Source: Microgenomates group bacterium Gr01-1014_16 (GTDB taxonomy: Bacteria > Patescibacteriota > Microgenomatia > CAZETR01 > Amesbacteraceae). From it: 32,259 nt of DNA. The number at the start of each line of letters is the position of its first letter. Positions within the stretch are counted from its first letter, which is position 1. Location: positions 1 to 32,259 of the forward strand of contig VMGA01000004.1 of the NCBI GenBank assembly GCA_007376345.1. Reading direction: 5' to 3'. Position numbers and translations under genes: made by a program. Positions 2,999-19,493 of this stretch are shown here, piece by piece. The notes under the pieces are model-generated. The model was not told the origin of the DNA, searched no databases, and worked only from the letters and a program-made list of their open reading frames with translations.

Positions 2999-3784
2999 AT
3001 GAACATAAAACGTTCCATAAAACTACTGTTTCTTTATGCCAAAGCCGGGCAAATGACATCTTGGGAATATCGGTTCGGGTATTTTTTCCGCCTCATCCGT
3101 ATTTTCATGGACTTTGGTATAGCACTTGTATTTATAAATGTTTTCTTTTCCAAGACATCTAGTATTGGAAATTGGAATCAGGCCGAAATATTTTTGGTTT
3201 ACGCTTTATTTCAAATGGTAAACAGCACTTACAATTTTTTCTGTGGAGATAGTTTAAACGATTTAGATTATGACGTCCAAAAAGGCAAACTAGATTTCTC
3301 CCTACTCAAGCCAATCGACAGTCAATTTATCGTTAGTTTTAAAAATACATACCCCTCCAATGCATATCGTGTAATTTTATCTATCATTGTCATGATTTAT
3401 GCCTTTGGACAACTCCATCTTTCTTTCTCGCCCTCAATCATCGTTTGGGGAATTATCTCTGTAATTTCGAGTACGGTAATCTATTATTGCCTTATCCTTT
3501 TGGCATCCCTTAGTTCGTTTTGGACCTCCCGGGGCGAAGTTACAGAACTTATGAACACTATTTTTTCAGTAAGTAAATACCCCTTAGATATTTTTCGCAA
3601 GCCCACAGTCCAATTACTAACTTTTATTCCACTAATCTTTTTAGTTACCGTTCCAGCCAGGGTCATTCTTGGTAAACCTGACCACCTTCATTACCTTTCC
3701 CCGTTTCTGGCAGTGGCAATTTTCTATATATCCAGAAAATTCTGGCTTTTAGCCCTCCGCCACTACTCCTCCGCTTCGTCATAA
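2999..3784 (+). CDS. ABC-2 family transporter permease (COG3694-like)
   Basis: 261 aa; VQKGKLDFSLLKPIDSQF signature; ends RHYSSASS. Confidence 0.85.
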   Translation: MNIKRSIKLLFLYAKAGQMTSWEYRFGYFFRLIRIFMDFGIALVFINVFFSKTSSIGNWNQAEIFLVYALFQMVNSTYNFFCGDSLNDLDYDVQKGKLDFSLLKPIDSQFIVSFKNTYPSNAYRVILSIIVMIYAFGQLHLSFSPSIIVWGIISVISSTVIYYCLILLASLSSFWTSRGEVTELMNTIFSVSKYPLDIFRKPTVQLLTFIPLIFLVTVPARVILGKPDHLHYLSPFLAVAIFYISRKFWLLALRHYSSASS

Positions 3785-4180
3785 TTTTTCAAACTCGACA
3801 GTTTTCTTCTTGGCATTGAAATTCCAGCTATATAAGACGTCAAGAAAGTCCACCCTTCCCAGTAGAAAAGGGGTAGAGTTTTCATAAGTAATCGAAGCGC
3901 GGACAACAATAGTATTGTTTGGAAATATCAACGGCAGTTCAATCAACCACGTTTTAACCGCGTGCCCGCCTATTCCTTGAGTGTTGCTAGCCTTGGCCTT
4001 AGACAAATTGATTTCCAGTTTTTTAGCCATATAGAAAGGCAATGTTGTCAAGTCCGAACCCGTATCAACTAGAAAATCATATTCTATTATCCCATCTATC
4101 GTTTTTAGACCAACTTTAATATTTGGCACAAACACACGACCAACCTCTGGTAAATACTTATATTGGAAGGGGAAGATCAC
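3779..4180 (-). CDS. retropepsin-like aspartyl protease (module copy B)
   Basis: 133 aa; LVDTGSDLTTLPF and TPFLLGRVDFLDVL motifs; GTG start directly abuts the stop of the upstream DUF5678-like ORF. Confidence 0.8.
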   Translation of the reverse strand: MIFPFQYKYLPEVGRVFVPNIKVGLKTIDGIIEYDFLVDTGSDLTTLPFYMAKKLEINLSKAKASNTQGIGGHAVKTWLIELPLIFPNNTIVVRASITYENSTPFLLGRVDFLDVLYSWNFNAKKKTVEFEKL

Positions 4181-4384
4181 TTAATAAGCGCTAAATACTC
4201 CGTATTGGGGAACATGGCTGATAACTACACCAGTCAAATCCAGATTTTTTCTCTCTGCGTCCTCATACATTTTTTTAATATCCTTTCCATGAGCCAAGAC
4301 CCGCCCAGACTTTTTAGAATACGCCACGAATCCGGGGCCGTATTTTTTGCTGAAACTAGTGAAGTTTCTGGTCACTTTGTCCAT
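4181..4384 (-). CDS. DUF5678-like small protein (module copy B)
   Basis: 67 aa; YGPGFVAYSKKSGRVLAHGKD; TATACT 6 nt upstream of ATG; paired with protease. Confidence 0.65.
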   Translation of the reverse strand: MDKVTRNFTSFSKKYGPGFVAYSKKSGRVLAHGKDIKKMYEDAERKNLDLTGVVISHVPQYGVFSAY

Positions 4385-4400
4385 AAGCTAAGTATAACAT

Positions 4401-4433
4401 CCCTCCGCCACTACTCCTCCGCCAGCTCATAAA
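4401..4433 (+). pseudogene. C-terminal scar of an ABC-2 permease gene (reads SLRHYSSASS stop)
   Basis: ccctccgccactactcctccgc matches 3753-3774 exactly (22 bp), then GCC AGC TCA TAA versus GCT TCG TCA TAA, a synonymous divergence. Confidence 0.6.
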
Positions 4434-6274: not shown

Positions 6275-7050
6275 AAATTTTTAAAGTTACTTTACGTTAC
6301 TTCATCAATTCACTTGAGCAAAACATTAGCGGACCGACAGTTTTTCTCCTGTTTTTTACCAGTAAACTTCTGCGCTATGCACTGTTTATGTCCTTTCTTT
6401 ATTACTTAGGTACTGGCGTCAAACTTATCGGCGGTTACACCTGGGAACAGATGCTTTTTTTCTATCTCATTTTTATTCTCATTGATACCATCGTACAAAT
6501 GTTCTTCCGCGAAGTTTATCGTTTTCGATCGTTAGTCGTCACTGGTGGGTTTGATATGGTCCTGGCCAAACCCTTCCCGCCCTTGGTTCGCTGTCTCCTC
6601 GGAGGACCTGATTTTATTGATTTAGGAGTACTGGTCATTCTGAGTATCGTCATAATCTATTTCACTTCTGTTTATATCCATCCTTCACTTTCACAAACAC
6701 TCTCGTTCTTCTTAATGTTGAGCAATGCATTTATTGTCGCCACCGCCTTTCATATTTTAGTTTTAGCTATTGGTATTCTCACTCTTTCGGTTGATCATTT
6801 GGTGATGGTTTATAGAGATCTTACGGCCCTGGTTCGCATTCCTGTCGACCTCTTCACCGAACCCGTCCGCTCTCTTATTACCTTCGTCATTCCTGTGGGC
6901 CTCATGTTCACTTTCCCCGCCAAAACCCTCCTCGGCTTATTGTCCCCATCTTTAATTCTCTTTTCTTTTATCTTTGCTATTTGCTACTTGCTTTTTGCCC
7001 TCAAATTCTGGCACTTCGCCCTCCGCCGATATTCATCCGCGAGTTCTTAA
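6271..7050 (+). CDS. ABC-2 family transporter permease (COG3694-like)
   Basis: ATGA overlap with previous gene gives start at 6271 rather than 6196; VTGGFDMVLAKPFPPLV; ends RRYSSASS. Confidence 0.85.
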   Translation: MKIFKVTLRYFINSLEQNISGPTVFLLFFTSKLLRYALFMSFLYYLGTGVKLIGGYTWEQMLFFYLIFILIDTIVQMFFREVYRFRSLVVTGGFDMVLAKPFPPLVRCLLGGPDFIDLGVLVILSIVIIYFTSVYIHPSLSQTLSFFLMLSNAFIVATAFHILVLAIGILTLSVDHLVMVYRDLTALVRIPVDLFTEPVRSLITFVIPVGLMFTFPAKTLLGLLSPSLILFSFIFAICYLLFALKFWHFALRRYSSASS

Positions 7051-15500: not shown

Positions 15501-16361
15501 ATGAAATTCATGAAATATAAATATCTCTATTTTGCGATATCACTTCTCGTTCTTATCCCCGGCATTTATTCTCTAATTCGTTACGGCCTGCGCCTGTCTA
15601 TAGATTTCACCGGCGGATCCTTGTTGGAAATCCAGGCCACCGGATCGGCCAATTTCGCCGGTGTGGCCCGTGATCAAAACCTGGAACTTTATTCAGTCCA
15701 ATCGACGGGGGACAATTCTTATTTGTTGCGCTTCAAGCCTCTATCTCAAGAGGAGAACGACAAATTCAAAAAAGCTCTTGGAGATGTAACAGAAAAACGC
15801 TTCGAAACCGTCGGCCCGCTTATCGGCAAAGAGTTAACCCAAAAAGCCATTCTATCCATTATTCTGGCTTCGTTATTCATCATAATTTATATCGCCTGGT
15901 CGTTTAGAACTATTCCCAAGCCCTACGCTTCCTGGAAATTCGGCGTCTCTGCCGTCATAGCCCTTCTCCACGACGCGGTTGTCCTTCTGGGCATCTTTTC
16001 CATTTTCGGCCATTACTTCCACGTGGAAATAGACTCGCTGTTTGTCACCGCCATTTTGACCGTCATCGGCTTTTCCGTCCACGATACTATCGTCGTTTTT
16101 GACCGTATCCGCGAAAATCTCATCAAGCATCCCAAAACAGAATTCACTCAAATAGTCGACTTTTCCCTTACCGAAACTTTAGCTCGATCCCTAAATACAT
16201 CTCTTACTGTTACTCTTACTCTTACTGCGCTGTTGTTGTTTGGCGGCTCCTCCATCCGCTGGTTCGTCGTCGCCCTTTTGATCGGCATCATCTCCGGGAC
16301 TTATTCCTCCATCTTCAACGCCGCCCCCCTCCTCGTTCTCTGGGAATCCCCTAAAAAATAA
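15501..16361 (+). CDS. secF: protein translocase subunit SecF
   Basis: LSIDFTGGSLLEI; TVIGFSVHDTIVVFDRIREN. Confidence 0.96.
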   Translation: MKFMKYKYLYFAISLLVLIPGIYSLIRYGLRLSIDFTGGSLLEIQATGSANFAGVARDQNLELYSVQSTGDNSYLLRFKPLSQEENDKFKKALGDVTEKRFETVGPLIGKELTQKAILSIILASLFIIIYIAWSFRTIPKPYASWKFGVSAVIALLHDAVVLLGIFSIFGHYFHVEIDSLFVTAILTVIGFSVHDTIVVFDRIRENLIKHPKTEFTQIVDFSLTETLARSLNTSLTVTLTLTALLLFGGSSIRWFVVALLIGIISGTYSSIFNAAPLLVLWESPKK

Positions 16362-16365
16362 GACT

Positions 16366-16405
16366 ATATCAAACCCTACCAAAAAGGCCACGCCTTTCGA
16401 GCTCA
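16366..16405. repeat. ATATCAAACCCCATCAAAAAGGCCACGCCTTTC repeat, copy 1 (divergent)
   Basis: atatcaaaccctaccaaaaaggccacgcctttcgagctcaa; begins 4 nt after the secF stop. Confidence 0.75.
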
Positions 16406-16454
16406 ATAGACCTGATTCAGAATTCAGATTGAAAAGAGATGATACAATAGAAAT

Positions 16455-16679
16455 ATGACATACAAATTCAAATATCCCAAAAATCTCTTCTCTAAATACG
16501 CCGGTATGGATGTAATCCTCGTTGATGGCAAAGTTATATCAGCTTCCAAAGACGCATCTAAAGCTATCACTCAAGCGGAGAAAGAATATCCTATAGAAAA
16601 GATGACATTTTTCTCTGTCCCGATAAAAGGGTATAAAAATATGTTATGGTCTTTCCATATATCGATAAAGAGCCGATAG
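16455..16679 (+). CDS. DUF5678-like small protein (module copy C)
   Basis: YAGMDVILVDGKVISASKDASKAITQAEKEYP; ATGATACAAT 6 nt upstream of ATG; overlaps the protease start. Confidence 0.75.
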   Translation: MTYKFKYPKNLFSKYAGMDVILVDGKVISASKDASKAITQAEKEYPIEKMTFFSVPIKGYKNMLWSFHISIKSR

Positions 16680-17023
16680 TTTCGTTGGAGATAAAAAGCA
16701 GTCAAAATCATTGGTTGCGATTCCAAGCGTATGTAGATTCCGGAGCTAGCATTAGCGTTTTTAAGCCCTATGTTGCCAAGTTATTAGGCTTAAATATTTA
16801 TGACGGAATCATAAACTACCTTGTTATTGGGGACGGTTCAAAAATCAAAATTTACACCCACCCGGTATCAGTAAACTTCGCAGGTGTCGAATTTAAAGCT
16901 CGAATTGGATTTTCAGCCGATTTAGGAACTGGAGTAAATCTTATTGGCCAACGCTCTTTCTTCGACAACTTTACTTTCTGTTTTCAGTCCTGGCGCCACC
17001 GCCTGGAAGTGTTTCCAAAATAA
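16646..17023 (+). CDS. retropepsin-like aspartyl protease (module copy C)
   Basis: AYVDSGASISVFKPYVAKLLGL (DSGAS in place of DTGA) and NLIGQRSFFDNFTFCF. Confidence 0.75.
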   Translation: MVFPYIDKEPIVSLEIKSSQNHWLRFQAYVDSGASISVFKPYVAKLLGLNIYDGIINYLVIGDGSKIKIYTHPVSVNFAGVEFKARIGFSADLGTGVNLIGQRSFFDNFTFCFQSWRHRLEVFPK

Positions 17024-17035
17024 AACTCTAATACT

Positions 17036-17076
17036 ATATCAAACCCCATCAAAAAGGCCACGCCTTTCAAAGCTAA
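17036..17076. repeat. 41-bp direct repeat, copy 2
   Basis: atatcaaaccccatcaaaaaggccacgcctttcaaagctaa identical to 18116-18156. Confidence 0.85.
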
Positions 17077-17084
17077 GATGCAAA

Positions 17085-17723
17085 TTAGAAGTGGTTTCTT
17101 AATACATCTACCGCAACATCAACATCCTTTTGCCTTACGATAAATGATATTTCAGTAAATGTCGATACTATTTCAATCAAATTTATTCGTTTACTTGCCA
17201 ACGCTGCTACTAATGCGTAAATCATATTCGGCACTTCAATATACTCCAATTCAGAAAACCGTACAGTTATTGCCACTAAATTATCATATTGACCTTTTGG
17301 CTTGACCCCAAAATGTTTCAGAATAATTTCTTTGTTACTCTCAGGTGCTATAACTGTAACTTCACCTAGTCCTTGGGTAATCGTAAAAAAGTCATTTCCA
17401 CCTGGTTTAGGTTCTATCAAACTAACTTTATCCATTATTTCTTGGGTTTTTTCATAAGTCACTTCAAACAGTCGAGCCTTAATACTCAGGTCGTTTATTT
17501 TTACTGCAGGTCGTAGTGGCTGGACATCTCTGATACCGGTAGCAATCCTAGATAACGCCGTCACAATACTTCCGCTTCTGACACTTTTATACAGTCTTTT
17601 CTCAATTTGGGTTTTAATTTTTCTAGCATAAGCACTCAGATTTAATACACCAGCTCGCAACGCCTCTAGCGCCACTTCGTCTCCCTGAATCAAATCCAAA
17701 ACAGCTTCAGAAATCTTTATCAT
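17085..17723 (-). CDS. ACT-like domain protein (hypothetical)
   Basis: 212 aa; C-terminal EVPNMIYALVAALASKRINLIEIVSTFTEISFIVRQKDVDVAVDVL resembles aspartokinase-type ACT repeats; TACAAT 6 nt before ATG. Confidence 0.6.
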   Translation of the reverse strand: MIKISEAVLDLIQGDEVALEALRAGVLNLSAYARKIKTQIEKRLYKSVRSGSIVTALSRIATGIRDVQPLRPAVKINDLSIKARLFEVTYEKTQEIMDKVSLIEPKPGGNDFFTITQGLGEVTVIAPESNKEIILKHFGVKPKGQYDNLVAITVRFSELEYIEVPNMIYALVAALASKRINLIEIVSTFTEISFIVRQKDVDVAVDVLRNHF

Positions 17724-17843
17724 CGCACGATTGTATCATATTACACAAAAAAAGTGAAAATGACACATAATCAGAAATATTTTACAATTAATGATTTACC
17801 CTCTAAACTTCAGGAATTATTTCCAGAAAGGAGGTGAGAAAAA

Positions 17844-18008
17844 ATGTCAGTCGAAACACCAGAACCACAACAGCCAGTAGATCCCATAGTGGCTTACTTG
17901 AGGCTCTTAGAAAAAATTACTCGGGAAAAAATCTGGCCTCCCCCGAAAAAAATCCCCACAGAATTGGAACCCGAATCGGAGAATTCGGAGGACGATGAAA
18001 ACCCCTAG
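17844..18008 (+). CDS. small acidic proline-rich protein
   Basis: 54 aa (not in track) MSVETPEPQQPVDPIVAYLRLLEKITREKIWPPPKKIPTELEPESENSEDDENP; strong SD AAAGGAGGTGA. Confidence 0.5.
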   Translation: MSVETPEPQQPVDPIVAYLRLLEKITREKIWPPPKKIPTELEPESENSEDDENP

Positions 18009-18018
18009 TCTTCGGATT

Positions 18019-18110
18019 TCCCCCTCTCTTTCTCGCCCTGCTTGTGGTGAGCTTGTCGAACCAAGCGCAGTCGAAGGTGATTAAAGAGGGGGGGGCGGGG
18101 GGTGAGTTAG
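18019..18110. repeat. CCCCTCTC-type palindromic repeat carrying a nested GAGCTTGTCGAACC-type repeat
   Basis: Arms cccctctcttt / gattaaagaggggg separated by gtggtgagcttgtcgaaccaagcgcagtcgaagg. Confidence 0.7.
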
Positions 18111-18115
18111 AAAAG

Positions 18116-18156
18116 ATATCAAACCCCATCAAAAAGGCCACGCCTTTCAAAGCTAA
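18116..18156. repeat. 41-bp direct repeat, copy 3
   Basis: Identical to 17036-17076; overlaps the stop codon of the CCA-adding-type gene. Confidence 0.85.
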
Positions 18157-19493
18157 AGTTCCCCCAGTCGTTTCAAAAGAGCTTCTTTTTCGTTTGCAAC
18201 TCCTTTTTCAGTTACCTCGATAAACAGCATCTGCAGATATTTTCCCACTTCTGGCCCGGGTTTGAGGCCTTTGATTTCCATCACATCATTACCATCGATT
18301 TTTAGGTCGGGAATGGAAAACGGCTGTTTCTGTACCTCTTCAAACCTCTCCAATAATTTTTCCAGTCTCCAGCTGGAAGGCGCAGCCCCGCTCCCGATCC
18401 GGTCCGCCACCCGCAAATCAATTAAATCTTTAACATATTCCGATCCGACGTTGGTAATTATCCGCCGCACCGCCGAATCGGTCATCTTTTCGTCCATCGT
18501 AAACTGATGCCATCTGACCAGCTTCAGCAATTTATCTTCGTCTTTATTGGATAATCTCAATCTCTCCGCGATTTTTTCGGCGATCTTCGTTGACTCCATT
18601 TCATGGTTATAAAAAGTTATCCGACCATCGGGGAAAACTTTTTGCGTTTTCACCTTGCCCACATCGTGTAACAGTGTCGCCAGCCGGGTAATTGGATCGG
18701 GATTAGCGCAGTGCCGCAGTGCCTCTACGCAATGCGTCCCCACGTCATAAATATGGTGTCTGTCCGGGCTTTTCTGCTCTACCCCGAACGCTGCCTCCAT
18801 CTCCGGCAAGACCTCTTTCCCCAATCCTGAGTTCTTCAGTATCAGATATCCGTCCGCAGCCCAGTCGCTGGCCATAATTTTCAGCAGCTCATCCCTGATT
18901 CTTTCAGCGGAAATCTGTCCGATCTTACTTGCATTTGTCTGAATCGCCCGCATCGTTACCGGTTCAATCGTAAACTGCAGTTGCGCCGCTATTCTTACCG
19001 CCCGCATCATCCTCAGCGCGTCTTCATTAAATCTCTCATTCGCATCCCCCACACACCTGATTAATTTATTTTTCAAATCCTCCTGCCCGCCATACAAATC
19101 AACCAACTCCATCTTATGATTTATCGCCATGGAATTAATAGTAAAGTCTCTGCGCCTCAAATCGTCCTCCAGCGTCTTTCCCCACTTAACTTCATCAGGA
19201 TGTCTGTTGTCAGAATAGCCGGTTTCGGTTCTATAAGTTGTTATTTCGTGAGGTCTGCCTCCATCCGTATTTTCAATTCCAACAGTGCCAAATTTATTGT
19301 CATAAAATCCATCAGGATATAGTTCCAAAATCTGTTCAGGAATAGCATTCGTCGTAAAGTCCCAATCATAAAGAGTTTTATTTAGCAGAATATCCCTCAC
19401 CACCCCCCCGACTATATATACTTCGAATCCGGAATTTTGAAACTTGCCTAGTATTTCAGATACCTGTGACGGAATTTTTATATCGATATTCAT
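18153..19493 (-). CDS. CCA tRNA nucleotidyltransferase / poly(A) polymerase family with HD domain
   Basis: FEVYIVGGVVRDILLNKTLYDWDFTTNA; RDFTINSMA; HDVGK. Confidence 0.92.
   Translation of the reverse strand: MNIDIKIPSQVSEILGKFQNSGFEVYIVGGVVRDILLNKTLYDWDFTTNAIPEQILELYPDGFYDNKFGTVGIENTDGGRPHEITTYRTETGYSDNRHPDEVKWGKTLEDDLRRRDFTINSMAINHKMELVDLYGGQEDLKNKLIRCVGDANERFNEDALRMMRAVRIAAQLQFTIEPVTMRAIQTNASKIGQISAERIRDELLKIMASDWAADGYLILKNSGLGKEVLPEMEAAFGVEQKSPDRHHIYDVGTHCVEALRHCANPDPITRLATLLHDVGKVKTQKVFPDGRITFYNHEMESTKIAEKIAERLRLSNKDEDKLLKLVRWHQFTMDEKMTDSAVRRIITNVGSEYVKDLIDLRVADRIGSGAAPSSWRLEKLLERFEEVQKQPFSIPDLKIDGNDVMEIKGLKPGPEVGKYLQMLFIEVTEKGVANEKEALLKRLGEL

Follow-up and report, generated by a model that had tools for sequence, protein, structure and literature searches.

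RAYT-REP systems, or REPtrons, are defined by a hairpin-flanked transposase gene together with dispersed hairpins (PMC2817692, PMC6006769). In some of these systems, in marine bacteria, the repeats are concentrated near the RAYT gene (PMC2817692), and tnpA_REP genes of subclass 2.4 carry internal REP insertions, generally between the HUH and Y motifs (PMC6006769). A search of the open literature revealed no paper in which REP elements or RAYTs are linked to candidate-phyla bacteria.

In this study, we analysed contig C42 from the genome of a CPR bacterium belonging to the family of Ca. Amesbacteria (1.03 Mb, 69 contigs); this stretch of 32,259 nt is referred to as the window. Between the convergent genes secF and cca, it harbors three repeats that are very probably REP-like, non-autonomous elements belonging to a RAYT system encoded on contig C61, inserted and amplified in a hotspot with several routes of gene gain and loss. 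This assignment is based on the match of the repeats to inverted hairpins on C61 and on the recurrence of the same pair in Candidatus Amesbacteria bacterium GW2011_GWC2_45_19 (G007), and it ties a previously unexplained candidate-phyla repeat to a defined enzyme family. The genomes used for comparison were mostly metagenome assemblies, and some contigs stop inside repeats.

A repeat search revealed exactly three 41-nt copies in the window, all in one orientation on the plus strand, namely at 16366–16406 (copy 1, hairpin 16383–16397), 17036–17076 (copy 2, hairpin 17053–17067), and 18116–18156 (copy 3, hairpin 18133–18147), with spacings of 670 and 1080. This agrees with the three direct repeats given in the preliminary description, as do the identity of copies 2 and 3 over 41 nt, the start of copy 1 at 4 nt past the secF stop (16361), and the overlap of copy 3 with the stop of the opposing cca gene, the last 4 nt of whose ORF are shared. 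Copy 1 is 83% identical to the other two. The exact 15-nt core occurred three times in the window, while allowing up to three mismatches gave seven matches vs. 1.6 expected, a number reached in none of 100 shuffles. Scanning the window against Rfam at gathering thresholds resulted in no match.

The gene content claimed for this region was found as well. Its left border, secF (15501–16361, plus strand; PF02355, 199.8 bits), is adjacent to cca in the family, and its right border is cca itself (18153–19493, minus strand), encoding a CCA-adding-type tRNA nucleotidyltransferase (PF01743, 117.7 bits). A DUF5678 gene of 74 aa (16455–16679, plus strand) scored 30.4 bits with PF18929 (cut-off 23.2). 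The next ORF (16646–17023, plus strand; 125 aa) contains the motif VDSGAS and is a candidate clan AA retropepsin-like aspartyl protease, with profile matches below cut-off (PF13650, 18.4 bits vs. 24.3; TIGR03698, 22.2 bits). The minus strand encodes an ACT-domain protein of 212 aa (17085–17723; PF13840, 29.6 bits, cut-off 27), the gene for which was not found in nine family relatives searched. A small ORF of 54 aa with a Shine-Dalgarno-like leader, GGAGGTGA, was read at 17844–18008 (plus strand) and remained without a match in a family search. A second palindrome, CCCCCTCTCTTT ... AAAGAGGGGG, which encloses an inner one (18020–18092, read by eye), is unrelated to the repeats. Palindromes similar to it were observed at the secF-cca junction of relatives beside DUF559 genes, and in the secF-cca gaps L100, L103, and L110, DUF559 endonuclease-like genes adjoin a palindrome of the CTCTTAATTTAAGAG type, which differs from the three repeats and is possibly a second repeat family.

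The element consists of a foot, TATCAAAnnnnATCAA, followed by a hairpin with a 6-bp stem and a 3-nt loop (AAAGGC-nnn-GCCTTT). In aligned copies from several genomes, the loop is either GTG or CAC, and CAAA is shared 3' of the hairpin; the consensus of 27 aligned copies (genomes G000, G001, G007, and G011) reads TaTATCAAA.tataTCAAAAAGGCGTGGCCTTTCAAA. The predicted fold was obtained for copies from the genome under study (-4.4 kcal/mol, z -2.2 to -3.0), and the hairpin was the minimum-energy structure when folded as single-stranded DNA. This genome harbors about 12 sites, which are dispersed, intergenic, and near gene ends, about nine of them outside the window. There, the foot-bearing core was detected on C13 (four), C11, C50, C55, and C61, the latter with two copies flanking one gene and a foot-less third copy sitting inside that gene. 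Matches at C12 and C50:10225, where the foot is absent, and at C58:116956, which sits in an apparent coding sequence, were discounted as probably due to chance. When the genome and 58 relatives were scanned, the element was detected in five genomes of the family only (the own genome, G001, G007, G011, and G012), among them those harboring the closest RAYTs, and in 0 of the other 54. In G007, eight of 13 pattern matches are located on the 97-kb contig bearing the RAYT gene. At two loci from two genera (L034:2525 and L117:10534), a repeat copy with a similar flank lies beside a tRNA-like gene, possibly an old shared insertion.

Several Y1_Tnp genes are present in the genome. The one on C61 that is flanked by inverted copies of the window element (1044–1733) encodes a product with a Y1_Tnp domain (PF01797, 41.4 bits, cut-off 23), and an HUH motif (NHFHF) as well as YIHQNP were read in its translation. 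It is a single gene copy for its REP type, the next paralogs in the same genome being about 40% identical. Its closest relative in a scan of GTDB genomes, the ortholog in G007, is 84–85% identical, and the same hairpins lie inverted on either side of it (arms of 32 nt, 91% complementary), while more distant RAYTs, e.g., one from Collierbacteria, have their own inverted flanking hairpins of different sequence. With the REP-transposase model NF047646 of NCBIfam, the C61 protein scored 39.9 bits vs. a cut-off of 80 and is, by this score, at best a divergent member of the RAYT/TnpA_REP proteins. This score runs against the RAYT-REP reading, and so do two observations on the distribution: G012 harbors one copy of the element, yet its closest RAYT is only 44% identical, and the element is absent from some genomes with RAYTs 54–58% identical.

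The element is associated with the C61 RAYT by the inverted pair, and each copy would represent one transposon-end-like unit, i.e., a foot in which a TATCAAA-like word occurs twice at a distance of about 10 nt, and then the 6-bp hairpin. As expected from the enzyme family, the RAYT, a TnpA_REP-type Y1/HUH single-strand transposase, would bind this hairpin as single-stranded DNA, and single-strand mobilization, strand specificity, and the cleavage site of the element would likewise follow from that family. Very probably, the elements were inserted and amplified in the secF-cca intergenic hotspot, where genes are gained and lost by several routes. An empty site for a single window copy, free of other changes, was not found, which also counts against this reading.

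Compared to described REPtrons (PMC2817692, PMC6006769), the system is similar in having one Y1/HUH gene per repeat type, inverted flanks, and a dispersed intergenic hairpin, and the clustering of the G007 repeats near the transposase gene resembles that in some marine bacteria (PMC2817692). It differs, which counts against the RAYT-REP reading, in its foot, which lacks the conserved GTAG/GGAG tetranucleotide and has a double TATCAAA-like word instead, and in its copy number, with about 12 copies in the own genome and 13 pattern matches in G007 rather than more than 100. Based on the missing GTAG/GGAG foot, the low copy number, and the NCBIfam score below cut-off, we refer to the repeats as REP-like and atypical, not as canonical REPs. 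The find extends such elements, with a different foot, to the reduced genomes of CPR. With IS200/IS605 elements, the system shares a Y1 transposase and terminal hairpins, but it has a single gene copy for each repeat type, its flanking hairpins are inverted, and many ends are solitary, in contrast to an IS in multiple full copies. TnpA_REP subclass 2.6 and class 3 (PMC6006769) are similar with respect to the Y motif YIH[QN]NP (2.6) and in having flanking secondary structures of an atypical kind. Subclass 2.6, however, is found mainly in Bacteroidetes, and the C61 protein carries FQ instead of WQ, so that it does not fit cleanly into this subclass.

Most Microgenomates-type RAYT genes studied carry a copy of their own flanking hairpin within the gene, a few codons past the catalytic YIHxNP, where it usually encodes [KQ]-G/A-x-[ASP]-[LF]. 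A clear copy was identified in nine of 11 scorable RAYT genes (L032:1530-1544, L129:3487-3501, L132, L260, L261, L264-L266, and L268). In seven of these nine, the gene's own flanking arm scored best, and in the other two only a closely similar arm scored higher; the in-gene copies appear to change together with the flanking hairpins. In the Saccharibacteria RAYTs tested, flanking hairpins were present, while a clear internal copy was not found. A cognate REP embedded in frame in the tnpA_REP gene is also known from subclass 2.4 (PMC6006769), but there the insert lies between the HUH and Y motifs, while here it is located past YIHxNP and before SSY. The in-gene hairpins provide a natural series for following how RAYT proteins and their DNA targets change jointly.

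Comparison of the junction across relatives, as proposed in the preliminary description, showed that secF and cca are convergent neighbors in all 12 family relatives examined. Three of these relatives have a nearly empty junction (2, 21, and 58 bp). The other nine have gaps of 460 to 4,620 bp, the contents of which are unrelated and comprise DUF559 endonuclease-like genes, methyltransferase-like genes, membrane proteins, and others (methyltransferase and membrane labels assigned by eye). Thus, secF-cca is indeed a convergent site at which genes are gained and lost, as had been suspected, while the guidance of its turnover by the repeats is not borne out, since none of the 12 junctions carries the repeat although their gene content is equally variable. 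The repeats therefore do not explain the hotspot, and they are not specific to this junction either, being dispersed elements tied to a RAYT on another contig. The secF-cca junction is a family-wide gene-turnover hotspot with or without the repeat and represents a reproducible site of this kind. In G013, the final ~60 nt of secF occur a second time (98%) on the far side of an inserted gene of 519 aa (L110:2382-2441 and 4077-4136), as if the insertion had rebuilt the gene end, which indicates that processes other than the repeat also act at the junction.

The position of copies directly past the stop codons of secF, the protease ORF, cca, and AbiEii, together with a minus strand that reads as a GC stem followed by TTTTT, would also suit intrinsic transcription terminators, copied or converged downstream of genes. 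We consider this very unlikely, as a terminator scan flagged none of the three window repeats as a GC stem with a T-rich tail, the plus-strand tail is TTTC, and a terminator would need neither the conserved 20-nt foot nor inverted copies around a transposase gene; a secondary termination effect of the repeats is possible. Small accessory genes separated by direct palindromic repeats are, on the other hand, reminiscent of an integron-like or tyrosine-recombinase cassette array. Such an array is barely conceivable here: no integron integrase was detected above cut-off in the genome, the one weak match, a tyrosine recombinase below the threshold (48.9 bits vs. 265), comes from a model that gives sub-cut-off matches in 14 of 14 control genomes as well, and the repeats occur singly and inverted around the Y1 transposase, unlike attC arrays.

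A third alternative concerns the movement of genes by the repeats themselves. Two co-oriented elements would take the roles of the left and the right end in an IS200/IS605-type element, and the enclosed genes plus one repeat would be excised and inserted by the RAYT or through recombination of identical repeats. We rate these REP-bounded cassettes as rather unlikely, though several features are in line with them. All three window copies share one orientation, as do all four on C13, where separate genes alternate with repeats and an AbiEi/AbiEii toxin-antitoxin pair lies exactly between two copies. The end of this AbiE unit plus the repeat is found on both C13 and C11 in 99 identical nt that diverge 4 nt past the hairpin, but because C11 stops within these shared nt, the fork can be explained by strain variation or assembly. 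No base differs between copies 2 and 3, and copies resemble others of their own locus more than those at other sites (permutation p 0.01). The gene content of G007 departs from that of G012 where repeats lie between rplS and a tRNA and at the gatB-dnaE repeat site (REP doublet vs. HicBA pair), and an accessory block of HEPN/nucleotidyltransferase genes in G007, absent from G012, is bounded by copies of the element, which are, however, inverted and not direct. Gene turnover at the junctions of the 12 relatives proceeds without the repeat, and no complete REP-gene-REP unit was detected at two locations together with clean empty counterparts. A CT dinucleotide 3' of the hairpin, where E. coli TnpA_REP would lead one to expect cleavage, was present in 15 of 27 copies vs. 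0.37 expected per copy, an enrichment too weak for a conserved site, which was therefore rejected. As the repeats coincide with breakpoints outside the window (C11/C13 and G007 vs. G012), they may play a part in moving or rearranging neighboring genes, and genes between co-oriented repeats may be mobilized. Quite unlikely is the wider notion that the RAYT moves genes between co-oriented elements as composite single-strand cassettes and is a domesticated cassette shuffler, each RAYT gene carrying its cognate hairpin in-gene. If the repeats did move genes, RAYT proteins, whose purpose is still debated, would have an integron-like role, and the cassettes of a minimal CPR genome would comprise toxin-antitoxin pairs as well as ACT and protease genes.

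Independent of the assignment of the repeats to REP-like elements of the C61 RAYT system, further repetition was observed in the window. Pairs of DUF5678 and aspartyl-protease-like genes occur three times in its 32 kb (1533-2157, 3779-4384, and 16455-17023), only one of them beside the REP-like element. In addition, a 32-nt sequence from a permease 3' end (encoding ..LRxYSSASS-stop) is present in four copies (1469-1500, 3753-3784, 4401-4432, and 7019-7050), two of which bracket the minus-strand DUF5678/aspartyl-protease pair at 3779-4384.
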